IMG/VR virus record: IMGVR_UViG_3300042691_006758
Coordinates: 1 to 20,175 of that record
DNA: 20,175 bases
Source of the DNA: a virus
Reading direction: 5' to 3' (one strand)
Shown here: in pieces, positions 5,229-19,250 of the stretch
How positions within the stretch are numbered: the first letter of the stretch is position 1
Layout of the letters: every line of letters starts with the position of its first letter
The notes under the pieces: model-generated
Seen by the model: only the letters and a program-made list of their open reading frames with translations
Told to the model about the DNA's origin: nothing
The model's database searches: none
Translations under genes and position numbers: made by a program

Positions 5229-5867
5229 TTAGACCTCTTCCAGAGTTACCGATATGTTCCAAAGATCAAAATTATTACCGCCACGCTTTACGACGGAATA
5301 GTTAAAGTCTGCAAAGTATACCTGAATAATTTCATTATACTGTCCTAGATGTGTAAATGCATTATTATCATCACCAAAATTAGAATATTTATCGTATGCA
5401 AGATACATCCAAAATGGTCCAGGATGCGAGTTATACCAGTCTAAAATTTCTACTCCACCAGCACCGCCGTCTGCTGTAAATTCTTGTACATAGTTTTGAT
5501 AAGGCGAAACTCCTGTTGCTGGGTCGAACTCTGCATTTTGAAAAAATGCTCTTGATGGCAAAAGACTCCAAGACCAACTAACTGTCATCTTATCTGCAAT
5601 ATGATAAGATCTCATACGACCATTTATTGTTCTTTGTCTTTGCTCTATTCTTTGTGGTGTAAAACTAATTTCTCCACGATTATGATCTGAAAGTATTAAA
5701 AACTGATCTATTAAATCAGGGTCTGTTCCGTCTGGAACATCTGCCCCTACTTCGTAGCCATTTGGAACGTATAGACCGCTTGTAAGGGTGCCAGCATTAT
5801 CTGACCATAAAACAGCCTGTGGCCTCTGATATCTTTTTCTACCAGTTAGGTATGCTGCTGTTGCCAT
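5229..5867 (-). CDS. Minor tail protein (distal-tail-like position)
   Basis: The 212-residue protein is encoded between the tape measure and the hub, the usual place of a distal tail protein that joins tube to baseplate. Its sequence is rich in aromatic residues and beta strands. It opens with YLTGRKRYQRPQAVLWSD, carries IEQRQRTINGRMRSYHIADK around residues 73-92, and then PFWMYLAYDKYSNFGD around 150-166. It ends in FDLWNISVTLEEV. There is no signal peptide or membrane segment. The ATG shares one base with the TAA of the tape measure gene (TAATG), so translation is very likely coupled. The protein looks globular, unlike the repetitive tape measure. The distal-tail assignment comes from gene order, not from a decisive motif; a generic minor tail protein is the safe call. 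Confidence 0.75.
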   Translation of the reverse strand: MATAAYLTGRKRYQRPQAVLWSDNAGTLTSGLYVPNGYEVGADVPDGTDPDLIDQFLILSDHNRGEISFTPQRIEQRQRTINGRMRSYHIADKMTVSWSWSLLPSRAFFQNAEFDPATGVSPYQNYVQEFTADGGAGGVEILDWYNSHPGPFWMYLAYDKYSNFGDDNNAFTHLGQYNEIIQVYFADFNYSVVKRGGNNFDLWNISVTLEEV

Positions 5868-8800
5868 TATGCTCTTTGCCCCCTAATTCTTTGTGAATCA
5901 ATATATTTAATTTCGTCCAAAACAGCCTTTGCAATATTATCTGGGCTAGTATTTGTACCACCAACAGTAATACCTACACTATAATTATACACTGTACTTG
6001 AGTTATCGCTAAGAATTGACGTATTATTAACTGGTGCCGCCATTGCAAAAGATGATGATGGAGGGGTATAGGTTGGTGTCTGAATATTTTTATTAATCAT
6101 AGACGGATACTTAGACTCATTAATTGTATTAAGAAGTGGTGCAAAAGCCTTGCTTGCTGCACGATTGACAACAAATTCTCCAGGAGTTAGAAGTGCAGGA
6201 ACATAGTCTGAGCCTATTCTTCCTCCGTATGCCATAGGCTTAACTTTTCCACCATATGCCATAGGTTTAATGAAACCGCCATACATTACTGCCTGCTGGG
6301 TAGTTCCATCACCACTTGGTCCTTGCTGAGTTGTTGTGATAATAGTTTGATTAATAGTTTCATTAATCACTCTGTTTATAGTTTCATCTATTACCCGTTT
6401 AATATTTTCGTCTACATTTGTAACAAGGTCAACCGTTTTGCTTTCAAATTTATTGTATGCTGCAAGAGCAGACTGTAATGCACTACTTGCAGTTACCATT
6501 TGATCTTTATATTGTGTAGCAGTAGTGGTTGCTGCCTCTAAAGCAGTTTGTGCCTGATCCCATGCTGTTTTTTCTGCTTCGATTGCTTTAAGTCTATCAC
6601 TTAAAATCTTTTCTCTCTTCTTAACTTCTGACTCAAGGGGTACGAGAATTTCATTTTGTATTTTTGCTATAGCCGCTTCTTTAATAGCAATATCGGCAAT
6701 AGCCTTCTGTTTATCATCTTGATAGTCTCTAATCTTCTTTTCTAGTGGCTCTACCTTTTCACGCAAAAGTTTTTCTCTAGCAGCCTCGCCCTTTTCAATA
6801 TCATCTTTCATCTTTCGTATTTTTTCTACTTCAACTGCCTGGGCTTTTTCGGCAGCGACTATCTGATCTTGAAGTTTTTGAATAGACTCAATTATTGGCT
6901 TTCTTAACAGTTCTTTTTGATAAATTTCATCCTGTATATTTCTAATTTCTATTTGTTTTTCAGCACGTAGTTTTTCTATATTATAAATTTCATCTTCAAT
7001 CGCACGAATCTCAAGTTGTTTTTCAGCACGTGTTTCTTCAATTTGTCTAATATTATCTTGAATATCCCTAATAGAACGCTGTATTGTTTCTGACTGTTCT
7101 TCTAGTGCAAATATTTGTTGGTTGATTTGGAATTGACGCTCTTCAATATCTGCACGAGTCATTCCCTGTGCAGATCTAATACCGCCTAGTTCTGCCTGTC
7201 TTGCTGCATCAAGAACACCTCCAGCACGTTGAGAAGCGGCGCTTGCAGCCTGCGCTCTTGCTTCTTGTGCAGCCCGTGCAGCAGCAGCAATATCACCTTG
7301 AGTAATAGCACTTGCAATATCAAGTTGACTTCTTTGTTGATTTAAAATTTCTTGATTTACATCAGCAACTTGTTGTAGTGCTTTGGCCTGTGCGTCATAT
7401 TTATCGTTTATTTGTTGTGCAACCTTATCCATCAAGGTTAACTCATTAGCAAGATCAGATGACTCTTCCTGTAAGTCTGCGATTGGCCTACTAAAATTAA
7501 GTTCTACTTGTAAATCTAATCTATTAATTTCATTTTGAAGAGACTCTATGCGACGTGATCCAAATACTGGATTTATCTCAAGTTCACGTTCTTTATTAGC
7601 GATATCATTTTGTAAACTTTCTAGTCTACGAGATCCAAATACTGGATTAACTTCAAGTTCACGTTCTTTTTGAGATATACTATTTTGTAAATTTTCTATA
7701 ACACGATTACCGTATACTGGATTTATTTCTAAATCTAGTTCTTTATCATTAATCTGATTTTGTAGACCCTCAACAAATCGTTTTCCATATTGTGGATTAA
7801 ATTCAAGATTTAACTCTGCTGCAGCGATTGAATCTTCTAGTTGTCTACGAACATCATCATATGCAGATGGGGGCAACAACGTTCCATCGGCAAGAGTAAG
7901 CCCAGAGGCTGCGGTTTCAAGTTGTCTCTTAATCTGATCTATTTGACTTTGTGCCTTTTCAATATTAAGATCTATTGGTCTAATTGTTGTATATTCAATA
8001 CTTGCAATTTCAGCACGTAGAGTATCTATTTGTTCGTTTGCTTTTTCTACCCCTTGTTCAAGAGTAAGTCCAGCAAACATGCTTTCAAATTCGGCAGGTA
8101 TTTTTGCTAGTGATGATGCAAGATCCTGCATTGATTTCTCAAATGCTGCCTGTGCAGCACGTGTTTGCTGATCAAATACCTTCATTGCTGCATCTCTTAA
8201 TTTTTCAAATGCAGCCATTGCAGCCTTTGCTGGCTCAATTACACCTTCTGTTGCATCTCCTAATTGCTTTAGCGCCTCTTTGGATCCCAATATACTCTTC
8301 ATAGTCTCGGAGCCAATACCATTTTGTAATATTTCTCTTACCAATGATGCATCTTGGGCAATCATTCTTAATGTTTCTGGATCAACAATGCCAGCCTGTC
8401 TAGCCATTGATACTGCCTTTAGTGCATCCTGAGCCTCTCCGACCTTTGTCTTTAAGTCTTCAGCAAGATTTAATACTTCAAGATTTAGTTTCTTCATTTC
8501 TTCTTTAGCGGCTTTGGCATCTGCTGCTAGTTGACGTAATTCTTTTCCTGTTATATCTTTAGAATTAATTGCTACCGCTAAATTTGCATCTGCTACCATC
8601 TGAAGTGCAGTGGCTGAATCAACTCCAGATGCTTGCAACTTTAGAAGCGCTGCTGCCTGTGCTTTAGTATCCTGTAGGGCCTGTGCATTTGCTACCTGGA
8701 ATTCTCCAACAACCTTTTCATTAAATGCTTCTTTAAGTGCTTTGCCTTGTTTTGTTAAAACTACTTCACCATTTTTGATGGTCATATAAGTTTTACGAGT

Positions 8801-11800
8801 TTTATCATCCATGCTTTCTAGGAACGAAATAAATTCTCTATTAAAACCGCCTTTTGGACCAGCCATTAGTTGTTGTGTTACACCAACGAATCTCTTTAAT
8901 CCATCTCCACCTGTTATTTTCATTAATTCTTTTACGCCACCAGCAGCATCTATACCTGCTTTACGAATAAACTTAAGTCTGTTTAGAAGTTCGTCTAGTG
9001 TAGTATCTCTTTCTTTTGTACCACCACCAGCACCCTTCCCCTTACCTTTCTTTGGAGCACCCTGTGCACCTTTGCCAGTTCCAACTAAATAAGCGCTTGC
9101 CTGTGCAGAAGATCCTCCAGCGAGTCCCTTTATATGTTCTGGAACTCCAGCAAGGCCTTTTGAAGCATCAAAGAAATTCTTAACATTTGGATCAGAGTAT
9201 GTGGCACCAAAATCAATAATCATTTCTTTTGTAATTGTGTCGCTTGTTCCCACTAAAGTATTCCATGTATCTAATATTCCCTGATATACGGACTGATCTG
9301 GATTATTTGGATCTTTGGCATATTTTGCAACAATCTCTTGTGTTATTGGACCCTTCTCAGCCTTAAGCGTATTTGTTATTCTTTGAATTTGCTGTAGTTG
9401 CTTAAGTCCAACGGTATTAATATCTACTGTTACGCCATACTTAGGTAAAATATTTCCAACAGAAGCAATAGCATCTTGTACTTCTTTAAACTGTTGTGGA
9501 TTACCCTTGATAAAATCAGTTACTATCTTGTATGTTTTTTCATTTGCCCCAGATTTTTCTAGTAATCCTATCAAAACATTTGCTTCTGCCATGCCTTGAG
9601 TATTTACAATAAAATCAAAGTTAGTCTGTAATGTTGGATTATCCTTTGCCATATTTATAAATGAAAGGATTTGATTTGGATCCATTTCTCCAGAAGCAAG
9701 GCTTAACTGAAGCATTGTCTTAAATTCACTATTTTCTAGTTTAGAAAGCGCATCAATAGTTTGATCCTTAAACACAGCCATTGGACCCTCTTTATACATT
9801 GTATCTGCAGCAGCCTTAATTGCTGCATCAAATGCTCCAGGGCTGAATTGATCTTTTTGCTTAATTAATGCATCTAGTGTTTTAGCATTTTCTTTATTTA
9901 CTGCTTCAATTGCAGACTTACGCTGTTTTTCTAATTCATTAATTTCAGCATCGGTTTTAGCCTGTTTAATTTTGTTATCATATTGTTTATTTAGAGAATC
10001 GACTAATCCTTGTCCTTGTGCTACCGCTTCAAATCCAAGTTGAATTGCTGCAGTATCAAGTTTTAGATTTTCTGCTTTAAGTTTGTTTTGATCAAAAATC
10101 ATCTTAATTGCAGCGCCAGCACCAACTGCAGCACCAACTGGTCCACCAGCGAGGGCACCAACGCCAACTAATCCTGCAGCAGCAGCAAACTCTCCACCAG
10201 TACCGAGTGTTTTTTTCCTTTGAGAAATAGCATTTTGGAATACCTGTGCTTGCTGCTCCATGGATTGTTTTTTAATTTCAAGAGCAACTTGTAAAGGTTG
10301 ACTTTCTAATCTTTCTCCATTTGGACCAACTAGGCTAACAATATTTCCACTTATTTTTGCTGGTATTTCATAACTGCCAAGTTGTTCTCCAAGTGCAGCA
10401 GCAAGACTTCTTGCTTGCTCTGTAGTTAAAACTCCTTGCATAATTGCAGTAGATAAACCTAAACCTAAACTTTTTGCTACTTGCTCCTCAGATGCTCCCG
10501 CTTTTTGTTGAGCCTGAATATCTGCTAATAGATTTTGACCAAATCCACTTTCAAGAATAGTTTGACCAGTTTTTCTTTGTACGCCAGATGCTCCCGTGAG
10601 CATAGTCTCTCGTCTACGTTTTGCAGACTCTGTAGCGCTTACTGTTCCAGTTACCTTAGAAAGTTCTACTAATTTACTATTCGTCATAGTCATTGACTTA
10701 GCAAGATTTGCGCCTTCTTTGCTTGCATTTTTAAGATCAGAACTTAGTTTCCATAGTCCAACTCCGACTGCAGCAACTGCAGCAATGGCGATGCCGAGAG
10801 GATTTGCCAACATTGGAAGAAGTCCAGCAACTGCCGATATACCAAATAACATATTTGTTATTACCTGTGGTGCACCAGCCATTGCTGCAACCATTGCGCC
10901 AGTTCCTGCAGCCATTGCTGCTGGTCCAGCATAAGTCCCTATTCTTTGTGCTTTTGCAGCACGTTGGTCTCTCTTTAATTCTCTACTAGTCTGTGTTCCA
11001 TCGTCTTGAGATCTTGTATTATTTTTAATTGCTGTAGTTAGTTCATCCATTTGAGAATTACGACGCTCTTGTAATCCTCTTGGTCCAACTGATTGTCCAG
11101 CAGGAAATCCTTCTTCTGCACCAATTCCAAATGCAGGATTTCTAAATCCTCTTGGAATAACACGTCTAACTGAAGTTAGTGGCAATGCTCTACGGTCAGA
11201 TGGTCCACCACCACTTACTCTAGTTCCTGGCTCTTTTGGCTTTCCAGTTTGTCCAGTTACTACCCGCATTCTTCCATCTTGTGTTTCTACAGTTTCTCCA
11301 CGACCAACTAAAATCTGAGTTGCTCTTGCTCTAGCACCTTTGCTAGGCGTAATGCTTCGTCCGCCACCACGACTTAATCTTGCTGTAGTAAACCTATCTC
11401 CCTGTAATGCTGCAAGAACTTTAGTATTGCTCATTCTGCCAGTAGTTTTACTTACTTCTGGTCTTTCAAAAGCAACAATGTTTCCAGCAGCATCTCTTGT
11501 TACTGCAAGTCTATAATTAGGATCTAGTCTTTGTATGTCTCTTAATGGCCTTAATGCATTTTGAGAAGTTCTTGTTTTTGATACCGCTTCAATTACGTCT
11601 CCAATTGAAGCCGTAGAGTTCATCTTAATAGATGATTGTCCAAGAGGACTAAATGTTGTTGGAGCATAAAGAGATTTAATGGCATTACCAAAAAGACCGC
11701 CACGAGACTTCTTTACGATTCCACCTAGAATTCCAGTTCTAGTATTACCCATTCTAGAATAAATATCTTGATCGCCTATTAGTGTTCCATTTGGAATGTC

Positions 11801-14293
11801 ACGAAGAGAAGCAGTAAGATTGCTTCTTATTTGACCAGTTACTCTTGCAGCATCGTCTGGAGAAACTCCAAGATCAATAAGTCTTGCTGTCATCGTTAGA
11901 GTAGAACCTGGCTTATTGATTTCAGCAAGATATTTTTCTACTGGAACATTTCTAGTAATTAATCTTGAATTAGTATCTGGATCTATATCAAATCCAATTG
12001 CCGTAAATGCGTTAGCAGATCCAAATCCAAGAGATCTCATGTTTTCTGGAACATCTAGACCACGAACAATCTTTCTATCTACAGCGTGTGCAAATACAGT
12101 TCCGTCTTGATATTTAGCAATATCTCCACTTACAAGTGCTGCAATAAGTGGCTTAAATCTATCGTCTTGTGCAATTGGTTCTGGAACAACTGCTTCGCCA
12201 GGAGTTAGTAGTGCTGGTACCGAATCTTTTCCTGATTCTCCCCCTACTACCTGTGTGGTTCCAGAAGAAAACTTTGCTGGTCCAGTACCACCACCTTTTA
12301 TTCCAGGCTTAAATCCTGGCATCATCATTCCAGGATTAGCAGCAGCAAATCTAGTTGCAGCGGCTGTAGCCTGAACATATGCATTACGAAGTTGATTTAC
12401 TGCAGTGGCTTCAAGTGCAAATTGCTGTGTAAGTTTAGAGTGTGCTTGATTAAGAGAAGCAGCAACAACAGCGGCTTCCATCTGCTCACTATTTAAATAT
12501 TGAGTTTGTTGTGCAAGATTTGTGCTATTTCCAGATAACTTTAAAAATCCTTGACGCATTAATATAAATAATTTAATAATGTTTGCAGCACCGTTTGCCA
12601 CAAGACCAAAGGTCATCAGAAGTGTTGGTCCAACTAGTCCAATTAAAGTAGTTAATATTACTATAAACTTTTTGGTACCATCACCAAGATTATTAAATCC
12701 ATCAAGAAGTCTACCTAAAAACTCTACTACTGGTGTTATTGCCTTTAAAAATTCTTTACCTATTGGAGCAATAGCAATTTTTAAATCTTCTACTGCTGCT
12801 CTAAAGTTTGTACCAATTGCATCCTCTACTGCTTTTAATTCTCTCTCAGATAGGATTGCAAGTTCTTCTACTGATGCCCCTGCTAACTGCAAAACTCTTG
12901 AAGCCTGGTTTCCATCTTTTGTAACATTTTGGAAAAGTGTTGATAAGCGAGCAAACTGGAACTTACCAAATAGTTGTTCAATTGCTCTTGATCTTTCTAG
13001 TGGTGCAAGTGTATCAAGTGCTAAAGCAAAATCAATAACTGTCTGTCTTAAGTTTCCTACATTTCCCTCAACAATTTCTTTTATATTAATTCCCATATCA
13101 GCAAGCATTGCTGCTGCTTTTTCTGTTGGGTTAATTAATGATGCAAGACCAGACTTGAGTGCGTTAGCACCTTCTGATGCATTGATTCCACCTTCACGCA
13201 TAGCAGTTAAGAAGAATGCAAGATCTTCTACGCTACCACCTAATTGCTGAACAACTGGTCCTGCTTTTGGAATTGCAATAGTTAAATCTTCAATTGCTGT
13301 AACAGTTTGGTTTTCAACAGCATTCAAAAAGTTAATTTTTGATGTTAAGTCTTCTGCTGCTAAACCAAATGCATTGGTTAACGATATTGTTGTTTCAAGC
13401 GCTTGCTCTTGCTCAACATTACCAAGAACTGCAAGCCTTGTTGCTTCTGCTACCTGTGCTGTTAAGTCTGCACCAGTTTTACCCATTGCAGCAGCAGCGG
13501 CTGCCATTTCCATTGTTTTAACAACTGCAACACCATACTTAGTAAATTCTTCTGCTAGTGCTTGAATTTCACCAAGTGCTTTTTCTGTTTCTGCTGTTGT
13601 AGTGAACATATCACCGTAAACACGGCGGAACTTAAGGGCTTGAGCCTCAAGGTCCATAAATGTTTTTGCTGCTGCAGTTCCAAAATATGCAAGTGGAATT
13701 GTAAAACCAACCATTAATTGGCGGCCAGCCCACTGGGTATTTTTACCAAAATTTAATAGATTAGTAGAGCCTTGTTTTAGTAGTTGATTTAGTAGTGCTT
13801 GTTTTTGTGCTGCTACTGCTACTTGATTTCCATACTCCTTCATATTTAATGTTGTTGGAGTTATAGAAATTGCCTTCATTGCTCCCGATGCATCACGACC
13901 CAATTTAATATATTGTGTCTGCATCTTCTTGACACGTTCTTCGGCTACCCTGCCTATCGTGTCAAACTCTTGTTTAAATAATTTTCCAAATGTTCTTGTA
14001 GAACCACCAGCAAAACGGAAATACTCACGCATGGTGAGTTTGTTTTTCTCCAGTGCGTGAGTAAATGATTCCGTACTTGTTCTAATTGTGCCCATTTGGG
14101 CATAGAACTTACCGCCAGCATTGACGGTGTTCATTAAGTTGGTAGCAAGACCCTTTTGGGCTGCTGCTGCTGCAGCACTACCTTTATTTATACTTGTGTA
14201 TAGTTGTGCTAGTTGTCGCTGGAGATTTTTGATCTCTGCTAAAGATTGTGACGTATCTATATTTATGCCAATATTAGCATTTACGTCAGCCAC
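5867..14293 (-). CDS. Tape measure protein (giant, 2808 aa)
   Basis: This is the longest gene and has all the marks of a tape measure protein, which sets tail length, sits inside the tube and is ejected with DNA. Residues about 205-455 match a TP901-type core (VYGDMFTTTAETEKALGEIQ, AAAAAAMGKTGADL, MREGGINASEGANALKSGLA). Hydrophobic segments lie at about 540-578, 1117-1181 and 1363-1398. A Gly/Arg-rich, non-coiled region spans about 700-1115. Long coiled coils fill about 1900-2620 and include a 25-residue tandem repeat (2166-2265) and a 21-residue repeat (2401-2463). VPALLTPGE-type motifs occur near 690 and again near 2697. Three YGG units (9-residue period) precede the second. Start is GTG, with AGAGGT seven bases upstream and only 19 bases after the short chaperone gene. 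At about 1.5 angstroms per helical residue, the tail could be up to about 420 nm. Confidence 0.97.
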   Translation of the reverse strand: MADVNANIGINIDTSQSLAEIKNLQRQLAQLYTSINKGSAAAAAAQKGLATNLMNTVNAGGKFYAQMGTIRTSTESFTHALEKNKLTMREYFRFAGGSTRTFGKLFKQEFDTIGRVAEERVKKMQTQYIKLGRDASGAMKAISITPTTLNMKEYGNQVAVAAQKQALLNQLLKQGSTNLLNFGKNTQWAGRQLMVGFTIPLAYFGTAAAKTFMDLEAQALKFRRVYGDMFTTTAETEKALGEIQALAEEFTKYGVAVVKTMEMAAAAAAMGKTGADLTAQVAEATRLAVLGNVEQEQALETTISLTNAFGLAAEDLTSKINFLNAVENQTVTAIEDLTIAIPKAGPVVQQLGGSVEDLAFFLTAMREGGINASEGANALKSGLASLINPTEKAAAMLADMGINIKEIVEGNVGNLRQTVIDFALALDTLAPLERSRAIEQLFGKFQFARLSTLFQNVTKDGNQASRVLQLAGASVEELAILSERELKAVEDAIGTNFRAAVEDLKIAIAPIGKEFLKAITPVVEFLGRLLDGFNNLGDGTKKFIVILTTLIGLVGPTLLMTFGLVANGAANIIKLFILMRQGFLKLSGNSTNLAQQTQYLNSEQMEAAVVAASLNQAHSKLTQQFALEATAVNQLRNAYVQATAAATRFAAANPGMMMPGFKPGIKGGGTGPAKFSSGTTQVVGGESGKDSVPALLTPGEAVVPEPIAQDDRFKPLIAALVSGDIAKYQDGTVFAHAVDRKIVRGLDVPENMRSLGFGSANAFTAIGFDIDPDTNSRLITRNVPVEKYLAEINKPGSTLTMTARLIDLGVSPDDAARVTGQIRSNLTASLRDIPNGTLIGDQDIYSRMGNTRTGILGGIVKKSRGGLFGNAIKSLYAPTTFSPLGQSSIKMNSTASIGDVIEAVSKTRTSQNALRPLRDIQRLDPNYRLAVTRDAAGNIVAFERPEVSKTTGRMSNTKVLAALQGDRFTTARLSRGGGRSITPSKGARARATQILVGRGETVETQDGRMRVVTGQTGKPKEPGTRVSGGGPSDRRALPLTSVRRVIPRGFRNPAFGIGAEEGFPAGQSVGPRGLQERRNSQMDELTTAIKNNTRSQDDGTQTSRELKRDQRAAKAQRIGTYAGPAAMAAGTGAMVAAMAGAPQVITNMLFGISAVAGLLPMLANPLGIAIAAVAAVGVGLWKLSSDLKNASKEGANLAKSMTMTNSKLVELSKVTGTVSATESAKRRRETMLTGASGVQRKTGQTILESGFGQNLLADIQAQQKAGASEEQVAKSLGLGLSTAIMQGVLTTEQARSLAAALGEQLGSYEIPAKISGNIVSLVGPNGERLESQPLQVALEIKKQSMEQQAQVFQNAISQRKKTLGTGGEFAAAAGLVGVGALAGGPVGAAVGAGAAIKMIFDQNKLKAENLKLDTAAIQLGFEAVAQGQGLVDSLNKQYDNKIKQAKTDAEINELEKQRKSAIEAVNKENAKTLDALIKQKDQFSPGAFDAAIKAAADTMYKEGPMAVFKDQTIDALSKLENSEFKTMLQLSLASGEMDPNQILSFINMAKDNPTLQTNFDFIVNTQGMAEANVLIGLLEKSGANEKTYKIVTDFIKGNPQQFKEVQDAIASVGNILPKYGVTVDINTVGLKQLQQIQRITNTLKAEKGPITQEIVAKYAKDPNNPDQSVYQGILDTWNTLVGTSDTITKEMIIDFGATYSDPNVKNFFDASKGLAGVPEHIKGLAGGSSAQASAYLVGTGKGAQGAPKKGKGKGAGGGTKERDTTLDELLNRLKFIRKAGIDAAGGVKELMKITGGDGLKRFVGVTQQLMAGPKGGFNREFISFLESMDDKTRKTYMTIKNGEVVLTKQGKALKEAFNEKVVGEFQVANAQALQDTKAQAAALLKLQASGVDSATALQMVADANLAVAINSKDITGKELRQLAADAKAAKEEMKKLNLEVLNLAEDLKTKVGEAQDALKAVSMARQAGIVDPETLRMIAQDASLVREILQNGIGSETMKSILGSKEALKQLGDATEGVIEPAKAAMAAFEKLRDAAMKVFDQQTRAAQAAFEKSMQDLASSLAKIPAEFESMFAGLTLEQGVEKANEQIDTLRAEIASIEYTTIRPIDLNIEKAQSQIDQIKRQLETAASGLTLADGTLLPPSAYDDVRRQLEDSIAAAELNLEFNPQYGKRFVEGLQNQINDKELDLEINPVYGNRVIENLQNSISQKERELEVNPVFGSRRLESLQNDIANKERELEINPVFGSRRIESLQNEINRLDLQVELNFSRPIADLQEESSDLANELTLMDKVAQQINDKYDAQAKALQQVADVNQEILNQQRSQLDIASAITQGDIAAAARAAQEARAQAASAASQRAGGVLDAARQAELGGIRSAQGMTRADIEERQFQINQQIFALEEQSETIQRSIRDIQDNIRQIEETRAEKQLEIRAIEDEIYNIEKLRAEKQIEIRNIQDEIYQKELLRKPIIESIQKLQDQIVAAEKAQAVEVEKIRKMKDDIEKGEAAREKLLREKVEPLEKKIRDYQDDKQKAIADIAIKEAAIAKIQNEILVPLESEVKKREKILSDRLKAIEAEKTAWDQAQTALEAATTTATQYKDQMVTASSALQSALAAYNKFESKTVDLVTNVDENIKRVIDETINRVINETINQTIITTTQQGPSGDGTTQQAVMYGGFIKPMAYGGKVKPMAYGGRIGSDYVPALLTPGEFVVNRAASKAFAPLLNTINESKYPSMINKNIQTPTYTPPSSSFAMAAPVNNTSILSDNSSTVYNYSVGITVGGTNTSPDNIAKAVLDEIKYIDSQRIRGQRA
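6225..6300 (-). repeat. Three 27-base repeats encoding AYGG-V/I-KPM units
   Basis: On the plus strand CCGTATGCCATAGG at 6225, CCATATGCCATAGG at 6252 and a diverged copy beginning CCATACAT at 6279 are spaced exactly 27 bases apart. They encode tandem nine-residue units of the form KPMAYGGKV and KPMAYGGRI just before the C-terminal VPALLTPGEFVV motif of the tape measure. The third copy is degenerate. Confidence 0.85.
6905..7093 (-). repeat. 21-residue coiled-coil repeat in tape measure (63-base period)
   Basis: TTGTTTTTCAGCACGT recurs at 6953 and 7016 on the plus strand, exactly 63 bases apart. The two encoded units are RAEKQLEIRAIEDEIYNIEKL and RAEKQIEIRNIQDEIYQKELL. A diverged third unit, beginning SETIQRSIRDIQDNI, lies immediately upstream in the protein. 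The period is three heptads, as expected for a continuous coiled coil. Confidence 0.85.
7499..7798 (-). repeat. Four tandem 75-base repeats encoding a 25-residue unit
   Basis: Copies begin with the marker CCAAATACTGG or a variant of it at 7560, 7635, 7710 and 7785 on the plus strand, exactly 75 bases apart. In the tape measure they encode NPQYGKRFVEGLQNQINDKE, NPVYGNRVIENLQNSISQKE, NPVFGSRRLESLQNDIANKE and NPVFGSRRIESLQNEINRLD, each followed by a five-residue acidic/hydrophobic tail. An NP-x-(Y/F)-G turn alternates with an amphipathic helix, so this is not a simple heptad coil. Confidence 0.92.
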
Positions 14294-14312: not shown

Positions 14313-14642
14313 TTAGTTATTTGCAAGCACTGTATTTAATAGAGCATTTGCGTCTTGAAGTTTAACGCCAGATGCTGCTTCAATGATCTTGTATACCGTT
14401 GGAAGATCCAAGATATCTTCAAGTTTTGAAACATCTGCAAGTTCTGGCTTATATTGTTCCATAGCAATTTGTACGCACTCAATAAGAAGAGTCATTGACT
14501 TTTCATTATCTTCTGCTACCCCTGCTACCTGCTCAAACTTGCTCATGAATGGTCTCAAAAGAGAGATTTTTAGTGGTCTCACGTTGATTTTTGTGCCATC
14601 CATAAGGACAAGTTCTTGACCCTCATGTACTGTTGTTGCCAT
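14313..14642 (-). CDS. Short tail assembly chaperone (G-like, N-domain only)
   Basis: The 109-residue protein lies directly before the tape measure gene, the standard place of tail assembly chaperones, which coat the tape measure before tube polymerisation. It aligns end to end with the first ~95 residues of the 239-residue chaperone just upstream: about 40 identical positions by eye, including PLKI, LR-x-FM, PEL and DLPT-x-Y-x-II. It lacks the T domain. No second frame can extend it, because only 19 bases separate its TAA from the tape measure GTG. AGGAGG stands four bases before the ATG, the strongest ribosome site in the window, and an extended -10 box (TGCTATAAT) lies in the same short gap. 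High expression relative to the long form is therefore likely. The functional call rests on position and paralogy. Confidence 0.82.
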   Translation of the reverse strand: MATTVHEGQELVLMDGTKINVRPLKISLLRPFMSKFEQVAGVAEDNEKSMTLLIECVQIAMEQYKPELADVSKLEDILDLPTVYKIIEAASGVKLQDANALLNTVLANN

Positions 14643-14646
14643 TTTT

Positions 14647-14652
14647 CCTCCT
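14647..14652 (-). promoter_or_regulatory. Perfect Shine-Dalgarno site of the short chaperone
   Basis: AGGAGG on the minus strand lies four bases before the ATG at 14642-14640. It is the best match to the anti-Shine-Dalgarno sequence among the starts in this window. It contrasts sharply with the long chaperone gene, which has no such site. Confidence 0.8.
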
Positions 14653-14667
14653 ATATAGGCTAATGCA

Positions 14668-14676
14668 ATTATAGCA
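14668..14676 (-). promoter_or_regulatory. Extended -10 promoter candidate for the short chaperone
   Basis: TGCTATAAT on the minus strand matches the extended -10 consensus (TG, one base, TATAAT) exactly. Transcription would start near 14661, giving a leader of about 19 bases that contains AGGAGG. No good -35 hexamer is visible at 16-18 bases (TTTTAA is the best). It lies in the 55-base gap between the two chaperone genes. Confidence 0.5.
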
Positions 14677-14697
14677 TAAAACGCTTATTTTTAAAAA

Positions 14698-15417
14698 TTA
14701 AGATTTCATAACAGATGGGTCTCGCATATCATCATAATCTAGACCCAAACCAATACCAAAGCCTGCTTTTTTAGCATTTGGCCCTTGCAAAGCAAGAACA
14801 TCATTTCCGTCAGAGGTTTTTCCTTTGCTGAAAACCCTTGCTTTAAGATCTTCCCATTCTTGCTGTCCTCTTTTTTTGCCATCTTTAGACTGTTCATCTA
14901 AATTTATTCCTTGAATTGCTGCTAAAAATTTCTTTTCTTCATAGTCCAATTCTCTCTTGCTTGCCAGGGTAGCCATTAGTTCTGGCATTGATAGTGATGT
15001 TTCTAATTCTTCGTAGTCTTTCCATATACCCAGCAAAAAGGCCTCTGCTTCTAGTTTAACAAGGTCCAACTCTTTCCAGGTAGCCCCTTTGCTTGTTGCT
15101 TGATCTTTTACTGCTTCATCAGATTTTTTGTCAATTTTAATTCCAGCAGCGGAGTCTATAATGTTATATATAGTTGGCAAATCAACATTATCTTCGAAAT
15201 CTTTTATATTATTCGACAATTCTGGATAATATTGCTTCATACAAATAAAAGCACATTCTGACAATATTTGTATTGCACCATCATCATTTTTTACGCCTTT
15301 GATTTTTTCAAAAGCGTCCATAAATTCTCTAAGATATTTTATTTTTAATGGAATTGCTTCAATCTCTATACCATTTAAAAATACTACTCTATTTCTTTTA
15401 TAAACTTCGGTTGCCAT
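14698..15417 (-). CDS. Long tail assembly chaperone (in-frame G-T fusion)
   Basis: The 239-residue protein carries an N-terminal domain (residues 1 to ~95) paralogous to the 109-residue chaperone encoded next. This is joined in one frame, by a Lys/Asp-rich hinge (KIDKKSDEAVKDQATSKG), to a T-like domain (about 113-239) with LEAEAFLLGIWKDYEELE and LDYEEKKFLAAIQGINL. In most long-tailed phages the equivalent long protein (lambda gpGT) needs a programmed frameshift; here none is required. The ATG at 15417 has no purine ribosome site: the bases before it read AGATAAA. A TAGAAT -10 box ends eight bases before the ATG, so the transcript is probably leaderless or nearly so. An intrinsic terminator stands just upstream. 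These features suggest deliberately low expression. At residues 97-98 an A6 run could allow -1 slippage into an immediate stop. Confidence 0.82.
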   Translation of the reverse strand: MATEVYKRNRVVFLNGIEIEAIPLKIKYLREFMDAFEKIKGVKNDDGAIQILSECAFICMKQYYPELSNNIKDFEDNVDLPTIYNIIDSAAGIKIDKKSDEAVKDQATSKGATWKELDLVKLEAEAFLLGIWKDYEELETSLSMPELMATLASKRELDYEEKKFLAAIQGINLDEQSKDGKKRGQQEWEDLKARVFSKGKTSDGNDVLALQGPNAKKAGFGIGLGLDYDDMRDPSVMKS

Positions 15418-15424
15418 TTTATCT

Positions 15425-15433
15425 ATTCTATCA
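15425..15433 (-). promoter_or_regulatory. Extended -10 candidate giving a near-leaderless long chaperone mRNA
   Basis: TGATAGAAT on the minus strand fits the extended -10 pattern with one mismatch in the hexamer (TAGAAT). The last base of the hexamer is eight bases before the A of the ATG, so the expected start site falls at or one base before the initiation codon. The -35 region would lie inside the terminator stem and has no recognisable hexamer. Confidence 0.42.
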
Positions 15434-15436
15434 TAA

Positions 15437-15470
15437 CAACAAAGCCCACCGCTAGGGTGGGCTTGTCGTT
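15437..15470 (-). terminator. Intrinsic terminator after the major tail protein gene
   Basis: On the minus strand a perfect nine-base-pair stem (AAGCCCACC with GGTGGGCTT, 15442-15450 and 15456-15464) closes a five-base loop. It is followed by a T-rich run reading TGTTGTTAT. Flanking AACGAC and GTTGTT can extend the stem imperfectly. It begins about 18 bases after the stop of the major tail gene, a common place for a terminator that isolates this highly expressed gene. Confidence 0.85.
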
Positions 15471-15487
15471 AATCTAAAACTAGATTA

Positions 15488-16123
15488 TTATGATGCTGGT
15501 GCCCAAGTACGATCTACGATCTTACCATAGGAAGCCGATGTATCTTCAGGAAGAAGACGGAAGGAAACTTCGAACATCGAAGGTTCATCACGCTTTGCAG
15601 ATACTGTTACGTTCTCAATTGAGAGCGCACGATATGCTGCGTAGACACGCTCTACATATGCAGAGTCTTCGCAATCTCCAGTTCCAGGTCCAACAGCAAC
15701 AATTCCACGCTCAACTGGACATTCTCCAATGTCACCTGCTGAGAGATTAAGTGTCTGTCCTGCTGAAGTGGACTTAGTACCTGATAGATCATCAGAACTG
15801 TAAGCAAGAGCCAAGAGAAGGTTCTCAAGGGTAGCCTCAGCAAAAGCGGTAGCAAGATTTACTTGCATACCTTGCTTGTACAACTTAGCAACGTCAAGAA
15901 GTTGGTCAACCTGTACTTCACCGAAGTCTGGTTGGAACTGCAATTCTAGACCGTTCATGGTATAGCCTACGTTTGTGAAATCAAGATCATCAGAAAGTGT
16001 ATCTCTGTATGATTCGGTTGCGTCAAATGCAGGTAGTGTGCCAGCAGTCAGCGTTGTATCAGCAACGAAGAGAGCGGCTGCGCCAACGATAATGTTGGTC
16101 GATGTACCACGAGTGTATGCCAT
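15488..16123 (-). CDS. Major tail (tube) protein
   Basis: The 211-residue protein is the likely tube subunit that polymerises around the tape measure. It begins MAYTRGTSTNIIVGAAALFV, has the acidic beta-rich composition of phage tube proteins, and ends in a compact strand region (SMFEVSFRLLPEDTSASYGK). Position between the tail terminator-like gene and the chaperones is the standard site. I chose the ATG at 16123 because AGAGGTG precedes it by six bases; an in-frame TTG seven codons earlier (16144) overlaps that site and was rejected. Its GC and C-ending codons are clearly higher than in flanking neck and tape genes, as expected for an abundant protein. It is flanked by an extended -10 box upstream and an intrinsic terminator downstream, so it probably forms its own strong transcription unit. 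Confidence 0.88.
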   Translation of the reverse strand: MAYTRGTSTNIIVGAAALFVADTTLTAGTLPAFDATESYRDTLSDDLDFTNVGYTMNGLELQFQPDFGEVQVDQLLDVAKLYKQGMQVNLATAFAEATLENLLLALAYSSDDLSGTKSTSAGQTLNLSAGDIGECPVERGIVAVGPGTGDCEDSAYVERVYAAYRALSIENVTVSAKRDEPSMFEVSFRLLPEDTSASYGKIVDRTWAPAS

Positions 16124-17884: not shown

Positions 17885-18876
17885 TATAAAACTCCAGGTG
17901 TACCAAAATTGGTTATATATTTCTCCAAAATTTTATCTACAATTAAATTGCCCGTTCCAAAGAAAGAACCTTTATCATATTCAACTCTGTACTGATCTGT
18001 TGAATATTTTAGAACATATCTCTTATGATAATCTAGTCTTCCACACTTTAAATCGTCAATAAGCATAAGTGTTGCATCTTTGATATCATATGGAACTACC
18101 TTATACCCCGTTGCTAACTGGAATAAATAGTTCCAGCCCATTGGAAATGTAACTCCAGGGGCAACAGCAATTGTGTTGGGACTGTCTTCCGAGTCGTACA
18201 TATAAATAGAATCAGAATACGCTAGTGGTACTCCTCTTGGAAAACTTGCTTGACGAATATAAGAATCTGATTGTTGAGTCCAGTCTTTAATAATTGAAGT
18301 TTTATCTTTTGTTAGAAGATAGTTCCATTGGCCATCTCCCTGCGCCTGTGGACTATCGTCATAATCCCAAACTAGTTCATTATTTTCATATGCTTTTAGA
18401 ATTAAATATACACGATCCCAAACTGGCATAAAGTCAGTATTATTTCCAATTGTCTCATACCAAGAACGCTCATAGTAAAATCCGCCAGGAACAATTGAGT
18501 CAATAATGGATCTTGCTAAACCTTCATAGTATGTAGCATCTTTGATTTCTGTTGCAGTTGTGCCAAGAGTTTTTGGATCTACATATGGTCGCATTACTTC
18601 AAGATTATCTTCTACAACAATATCGCCCTCTTCTGCACTTGTAGAAGCAGTTGTATAAATTGCATCATAAATTGTTAGAGAGTAAGACTCATCATATGTG
18701 TTAAACATATCTGGAAGAACATAAGTTATCTGTGAACTTGCAGAAGACGTTACTGTTGCTGTAACATCATTAACATTTCTAGTGCCCTCATTGATTACTA
18801 AAATATAATCAGTATTAGGCTCTGGCACATCATATGTGATGGACAGAGGATATGGTGGAAGTCTTAATAGTTGCAT
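17884..18876 (-). CDS. Head-tail connector / adaptor with N-terminal beta domain
   Basis: The 330-residue protein begins with about 95 residues of strand-rich sequence (SITYDVPEPNTDYILVINEG, DVTATVTSSASSQITYVLPD, YSLTIYDAIYTT) that looks like an Ig/fibronectin-type beta domain. A larger region follows with connector character: TYYEGLARSIIDSIVPGGFY, DRVYLILKAYENNELVWDYD, and a C-terminal DATLMLIDDLKCGRLDYHKR and VDKILEKYITNFG. Helices of that kind and the place after the capsid genes fit an adaptor bound to the portal. The ATG shares one base with the TAA of the 116-aa gene; no strong ribosome site is visible, so it probably depends on coupling. The N-terminal extension makes it longer than typical adaptors of about 100-150 residues. 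Function is inferred. Confidence 0.7.
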   Translation of the reverse strand: MQLLRLPPYPLSITYDVPEPNTDYILVINEGTRNVNDVTATVTSSASSQITYVLPDMFNTYDESYSLTIYDAIYTTASTSAEEGDIVVEDNLEVMRPYVDPKTLGTTATEIKDATYYEGLARSIIDSIVPGGFYYERSWYETIGNNTDFMPVWDRVYLILKAYENNELVWDYDDSPQAQGDGQWNYLLTKDKTSIIKDWTQQSDSYIRQASFPRGVPLAYSDSIYMYDSEDSPNTIAVAPGVTFPMGWNYLFQLATGYKVVPYDIKDATLMLIDDLKCGRLDYHKRYVLKYSTDQYRVEYDKGSFFGTGNLIVDKILEKYITNFGTPGVL

Positions 18877-19226
18877 TATGCTTTGCCGTAGTGCTTTGCT
18901 ACCTCAGCGGGGGTTGCCTCTCTTACCGCCCTATGCTTTAGCCACTTTACGGATACCTCCTTAGTAACAATGTTATAACCTTTTTGAAGTTGCCCCACAC
19001 CATTCCAATGAAGGTTTCTTTCAGAAAACAACGCAACTTTTTCTTGCGGGGTATCTGACTTAATTTCTTTATGATCATCTCTAGGTACAAAAGGCAGGAT
19101 AGCCTCTAGTAAATCTAATTTAGTTGTTGCCCCAAATACATCAATTTTATTTTTCTTCGCATATGATTTTAGTTGCGGCACTGTCATTTTATTGAATTCT
19201 TCTACTACTTCTTTTGTTGTTGACAT
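18876..19226 (-). CDS. Small head-region protein with SAP/Rho-N-like helical motif
   Basis: The 116-residue protein has a helix-turn-helix-like segment at about 13-46 (KMTVPQLKSYAKKNKIDVFG, then TKLDLLEAIL) that resembles SAP or Rho N-terminal domains, short modules that bind nucleic acid or protein. The C-terminal half (WNGVGQLQKGYNIVTKEVSV, LKHRAVREATPAEVAKHYG) looks like a compact second domain seen in proteins encoded between capsid and connector genes. GGAGG lies four bases before the ATG. A TGATATAAT box lies just upstream of it. The role may be capsid completion or genome contact; no function is proven by the sequence. Confidence 0.65.
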   Translation of the reverse strand: MSTTKEVVEEFNKMTVPQLKSYAKKNKIDVFGATTKLDLLEAILPFVPRDDHKEIKSDTPQEKVALFSERNLHWNGVGQLQKGYNIVTKEVSVKWLKHRAVREATPAEVAKHYGKA

Positions 19227-19241
19227 ATTTCCTCCACTGCT

Positions 19242-19250
19242 ATTATATCA
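19242..19250 (-). promoter_or_regulatory. Extended -10 promoter candidate before the neck operon
   Basis: TGATATAAT on the minus strand is an exact extended -10 match. With a 17-base spacer, TTTATA (19265-19270, inside the end of the 70-aa gene) matches four of six -35 positions. The predicted start near 19235 would leave only about nine leader bases, beginning with GGAGG, before the ATG at 19226. It could drive the 116-aa gene and the coupled neck genes. Confidence 0.45.

Follow-up and report, generated by a model that had tools for sequence, protein, structure and literature searches.

The phage DNA analysed here (the window; 20,175 nt, positions 1 to 20,175 of IMG/VR virus record IMGVR_UViG_3300042691_006758) carries two adjacent tail assembly chaperone genes, one in which the N and T domains are joined in a single reading frame (GT) and a second that encodes an N domain (G). 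Most long-tailed phages make both chaperones from one gene through a programmed ribosomal frameshift, which persists throughout tailed phages even when the sequence itself has not been conserved and which is usually attributed to the need for a fixed G:GT ratio. The two-gene set recurs in related viral loci, and the comparisons described below point to an overall explanation that we consider likely, namely that the two chaperones are encoded by two genes and that their ratio would be set by initiation instead of recoding.

GT and G lie on the minus strand, as do their neighbours, between the genes for the major tail protein and the tape measure protein. GT (14698..15417; 239 aa) consists of an N domain (residues 1-97; 15127..15417) and a T domain (approximately residues 105-239; 14701..15105), while G (14313..14642) is a protein of 109 aa. 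Both N domains match phrog_10504 (8.7e-23 for G and 1.8e-20 for GT); phrog_10474, which corresponds to the T domain, is matched by GT over residues 131-199 and not by G. The gene upstream of the pair (15488..16123) matches the major tail protein family phrog_885 at 0.0011 and the Ig-domain protein family phrog_2175 at 5e-33, and it occupies the position of the annotated major tail protein of phage MulchMansion. Downstream, the 2808-aa tape measure protein (5867..14293; Pfam PF10145 PhageMin_Tail, 7.6e-24) starts with a GTG codon that follows the stop codon of G after 19 nt. An earlier note, made from the sequence alone, had described the 239-aa gene as a single frame with N and T domains and the next gene as an N domain with about 40 of 95 positions identical by eye; both descriptions hold, and a BLASTP alignment gives 42/96 identities (44%) and 65/96 positives at 4e-27, with the PLKI, LR-x-FM, PEL and DLPT blocks that it had listed present in both domains. 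Its observation that the short gene cannot be extended, with 19 bases separating it from the tape measure gene, is likewise borne out by the gap. Searches of Pfam, NCBIfam and PDB sequences returned nothing useful for the two chaperones, and Rfam gave zero matches within the window.

Both genes are under purifying selection, with median dN/dS values of ~0.13 for the N domain of GT, 0.08 for its T domain and 0.09 for G. Synonymous divergence is about half as high in G (median dS 0.45) as in the adjacent GT (0.81-0.94) for the same 173 pairs, a pattern that would fit either a tighter constraint on the codons or RNA of G or its exchange through recombination.

In AlphaFold models based on alignments of the window and IMG/VR loci, G and GT share the same N-domain elements, two strands followed by four helices, at modest confidence (pLDDT ~82-89 over residues 11-90 of GT). 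Against the PDB, both models match the HK97 tail assembly chaperone (2OB9) best, with Z scores of only 4.2 and 4.5 and a mean pLDDT of ~66, and matches in a viral structure library include the GT protein of N15 and other chaperones at weak E values. The two N domains are homologous and share their predicted secondary structure, contrary to the possibility, raised in the earlier note, that they might be unrelated. The structural evidence is supporting and not decisive, and the chaperone assignment is carried by synteny and homology.

Classification by N-domain and T-domain profiles divided the loci into two states. Among the loci retrieved, by searches that favour close relatives and with related loci not independent of one another, a fused in-frame N+T gene followed by a second N gene was present in at least 138 distinct IMG/VR loci, and separate N and T frames with no second N gene were present in at least 113 distinct loci of the sister group, to which isolated phages of Streptomyces (Stanwilliamsviridae) belong. 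The second N gene accompanies 138/138 fused loci and 0/113 frameshift loci, so that the two states are mutually exclusive. In the first pass (160 loci plus the window), GT preceded G, the pair being flanked by the major tail protein and tape measure genes, in 155 of the 161 sequences, the other six being cut by contig ends, which extends to relatives the order of long gene first and short gene second reported for the window; a first set of 104 distinct loci and the larger set of 138 distinct GT+G loci were used for the counts that follow. The pair occurs in 138 distinct loci and is absent from the frameshifting relatives, which rules out assembly error as its source. No genuine intermediate, whether N and T frames with a second N gene or a fused GT lacking G, was found among the classified loci: apparent cases are explained by truncation at contig ends or, in L347, by an indel close to one, and the seeming exception L164 (Rhodococcus phage NiceHouse) is annotated as a frameshift set, is more distant and has an N gene that the profile missed. 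One two-gene locus (L131) has 172 nt between GT and G, compared with ~45 nt usually, the extra sequence lying ahead of the usual promoter and Shine-Dalgarno (SD) site.

Frameshift-type loci retain the conventional signals. The T frame is -1 relative to N throughout the tabulated loci, 96/113 carry a canonical X_XXY_YYZ heptamer (CCCAAAC in 48, GGGAAAC in 29, CCCAAAT in 16 and others in three), and the remaining 17 have the near-canonical CCCGGAA; a joined frameshifted gene is annotated in Sham and in the more distant NiceHouse. In one frameshift-type subgroup from IMG/VR (L246 and many of L273-L316), GGGAAAC stands at the same junction in place of CCCAAAC, and the heptamer has thus been exchanged while the frameshift was kept. 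A longer tape measure was considered as a cause of the switch and set aside: the open-frame lengths of the two groups differ (Mann-Whitney p 0.007, uncorrected for relatedness), but they overlap and the difference is too weak (medians 2480 versus 2666 aa).

No relatives were found among 84,980 bacterial and archaeal genomes. WhiB family genes are present in 13 of 14 long contigs with the GT+G arrangement, from which we conclude that these phages probably have actinobacterial hosts; the named relatives infect Streptomyces and Rhodococcus.

The two genes differ in how they appear to be started. GT lacks an SD site in the window and in all of the larger set (0/138), and its start codon is ATG in 104/104 loci. 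Seven nucleotides upstream of that codon in the window lies an extended -10 box, TGATAGAAT (15425..15433), a predicted leaderless promoter whose position is conserved in relatives: in 101/104 loci the distance from the end of the box TGNTANNNT to the ATG is 6-9 nt, and TANNNT is found 5-10 nt before GT in 137/138. The extended box is absent 5-10 nt before the starts of G (0/104) and of the tape measure gene (0/102), and is rare before the upstream neighbours, mostly major tail protein genes (1/100), and other ORFs (4/484); it occurs at that spacing in 2.6% of shuffles. A TANNNT -10 box placed ~7-12 bp ahead of the start codon, with no SD site, is the published layout of leaderless genes in actinobacteria, where such genes are common (PMC3160421; PMC3898074), and GT shows this layout. 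A pattern scan located a terminator-like hairpin between the major tail protein gene and GT, AAGCCCACC-CTAGC-GGTGGGCTT (15442..15464), and a hairpin with a T-rich tail is kept ahead of GT in 104/104 distinct loci. The predicted promoters of the two genes and the probable leaderless start of GT add to the earlier description of the pair and are the likely mechanism by which the two products are expressed separately.

G has a predicted promoter of its own and an SD site. In the window the extended -10 box TGCTATAAT (14668..14676) is separated by a 16-nt spacer from TTTAAA (14690-14695), and the SD site AGGAGG lies at 14647..14652; TGNTATAAT is present upstream of G in 138/138 loci and an SD site in 137/138. 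The -10 box is TATAAT ahead of G in all cases compared with 12/104 for GT. Pairing with the anti-SD is stronger for G than for GT in 104/104 pairs (medians of -10.2 versus -1.1 kcal/mol, calculated with a common bacterial 16S end that may not be that of the host), and in 103/104 loci the codons of G are better adapted than those of GT, with the major tail protein gene as the reference. The N gene of the frameshift-type loci has the same start layout as G (promoter in 60/63, SD in 62/63), and G thus seems to have kept the ancestral signals, with GT having gained new ones.

Two further elements were observed. The SD site of G is overlapped by a palindrome, CCTATATAGG (14650..14659 in the window) or CCTTATAAGG, with the pattern CCT-N2-6-AGG found in 32/37 representative G leaders, in 0.4% of shuffles and in 3/31 frameshift-type leaders. 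Its origin coincides with or postdates that of the two-gene state, and it may be an operator or a small hairpin that masks the SD site. Elsewhere in the window, a second TGATATAAT box (19242-19250, minus strand) lies 15 nt upstream of an ORF at 18876-19226 and may be a further late promoter in the structural region.

If the box ahead of GT were not a promoter, GT would be translated at a low level, with no SD site, from read-through transcripts, and the A+T-rich motif would have been kept for some other reason. The case for the promoter is made from sequence, one such motif is expected by chance per 20 kb, and leaky terminators exist; nevertheless, the fixed spacing of the box from the ATG, its scarcity ahead of other genes and the invariable hairpin terminator in front of it make this alternative quite unlikely in our view. 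We give almost no credence to a persistence of recoding, in which GT would be shortened to a G-like product by a dnaX-like -1 slip or a hidden site would extend G. In the window, GT has GAC AAA AAA (15124..15132) at the position that corresponds to the slippery site of relatives, with N and T joined in one frame, and the linker GAC AAA AAA TCT GAT would indeed lead to a stop straight after a -1 slip. However, an in-frame slippery heptamer is found in GT in 7/37 representatives, scattered and not conserved, and in G in 3/37, and a hidden slip of a dnaX-like or other kind was set aside for both genes. The former slippery site of G (14346..14354) reads GAC GCA AAT where relatives have GAC CCA AAC, and G has no access to a T frame, the tape measure gene starting 19 nt after it. 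A programmed frameshift at a slippery site is thus a property of the sister group and not of GT or G.

The origin of the N domain of GT leaves more room for doubt. In a tree of N domains, G forms one clade within the frameshift-type N genes of freshwater relatives (support 100/99, and 99/93 in a second tree), and the T domain of GT falls among the T domains of the same freshwater frameshift group (representatives in the last trees being at most ~80% identical in T). Because G and the T domain both nest among frameshift genes, frameshifting is most likely the ancestral state on this sequence evidence, and its loss needs one event and probably occurred once. The N domain of GT also forms a single clade, but on a long branch (0.72-0.73) outside the group that comprises G and the freshwater frameshift genes (99/96), and may be a duplicate that evolves fast or may derive from a relative further away. 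According to the second possibility, the domain was acquired by recombination and the pair is a mosaic and not a tandem duplication, with the working mechanism unchanged; the placement of the N domain outside a group that contains its own T domain speaks for this, whereas the length of the branch means that long-branch attraction may cause the placement, and no donor lineage with an in-frame GT or a GT-like N domain was found. We regard a mosaic as possible, if less likely than not. The proposal in the earlier note that duplication had replaced recoding is therefore upheld in that a two-gene set stands in place of recoding, with a sister lineage that keeps the -1 frameshift and has no second N gene, but duplication itself is likely and unproven. 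Rather unlikely, although less so than the absence of a promoter, is that the two proteins are subfunctionalised paralogues, GT acting only to start tube assembly and G only to keep the tape measure soluble, with start signals that serve timing and not stoichiometry, and with neither a fixed ratio nor a shared oligomer. The divergence of the N domains, the long branches of those of GT and the different start layouts would all fit such a division; on the other hand, the two N domains have retained a common set of motifs and a common predicted fold, the two genes always occur together, and lambda and TP901-1 need a balance between the two products (PMC5009743; PMC4493119).

We favour, with somewhat less assurance than the two-gene explanation as such, a scheme in which a phage lineage escaped tail-chaperone recoding by combining an in-frame G-T fusion with a separate G, the ratio being set by a leaderless GT promoter versus a leadered, SD-driven G promoter and the N domains being free to specialise. 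In the ancestor, a slippery heptamer would have yielded some GT from one N gene followed by a T frame at -1. In the first copy N and T would have been fused in frame and expressed from the -10 box just ahead of the ATG as a leaderless or nearly leaderless mRNA; the second copy, with N only, would have kept the strong promoter and SD site and lost both T and the slippery site. Many copies of G and few of GT would then result from transcription and translation initiation, not from recoding. An excess of G over GT should be expected from its SD strength, codon usage and match to the -10 box, although in Mycobacterium tuberculosis leaderless and SD transcripts show no overall difference in mRNA:protein ratio (PMC3898074), so that a leaderless layout alone does not prove that GT is low. 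In lambda the G:GT ratio is ~30:1 and GT links the tape measure to the tube protein (PMC5009743); by analogy, G would coat the tape measure protein, and GT would bind it via the N domain and recruit the tail tube protein via T. In TP901-1, a mutant whose G and T are permanently joined yields particles that appear complete yet are non-infectious (PMC4493119), which provides a reason for a separate G to persist. The two N domains, at 44% identity and with that of GT evolving fast, might co-assemble in this scheme, but the divergence could also mean different roles and not one shared oligomer.

A large group of aquatic, probably actinobacterial phages thus appears to make two chaperones from two genes, each with a conserved promoter-like sequence, and offers a natural and widespread replacement of recoding that can be compared with a sister group in which frameshifting persists. 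It suggests that the need for two products is separable from the need for recoding, and it leads to the prediction that the G:GT ratio can be set by separate initiation signals. G, GT and their amounts could be varied independently in these phages, which frameshifting phages do not allow, and leaderless translation becomes a candidate means of controlling dosage in an operon of phage structural genes. For annotators, a frameshift should not be forced onto phages with GT and G.

In the literature searched we found no account of a separate G with an in-frame GT (Xu 2004 and Xu 2013 were outside its reach, and a precedent is possible there). A loss of evident frameshift has been reported for some Microbacterium phages (PMC7302621), and the PRFect study points to many phages with no annotated chaperone frameshift (PMC10885494). 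Microbacterium phage EA1 is similar in that the evident frameshift has also reportedly been lost in an actinobacteriophage, but its second ORF, 75% identical to the T part of Koji, encodes T alone and lacks an N domain, so that there is neither a GT fusion nor an N copy; the frame of this ORF is open into the first ORF and a frameshift is possible, and EA1 is ruled out as an instance of the same solution. The closest annotated relatives are the Stanwilliamsviridae Streptomyces phages (MulchMansion 54/55, Sham 34/35, Forrest), whose N and T parts occupy the same position and carry a tail assembly chaperone annotation, with homologues of both domains (phrog_10504 and phrog_10474) and the same neighbours. 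MulchMansion has a terminator, TGNTATAAT and an SD site ahead of its N gene, as G does; these phages differ in that they have a single N gene, without a second copy, and encode T in the -1 frame. Compared with lambda gpG/gpGT, and also with HK97 gp13 (2OB9), TP901-1 and SPP1 17.5/17.5*, GT and G share the position between the tail tube and tape measure genes and the combination of a short N protein with a longer N+T protein, the N domains being homologous here and identical in lambda. They depart from the lambda type in that there are two genes, the longer one first, whose N domains have diverged and whose start signals are separate, and in that a slippery site is absent. The TP901-1 gpGfsT mutant has a permanent in-frame G-T fusion like that of GT, but it lacks a separate G and is non-infectious, whereas the natural phages described here supply G from a second gene.
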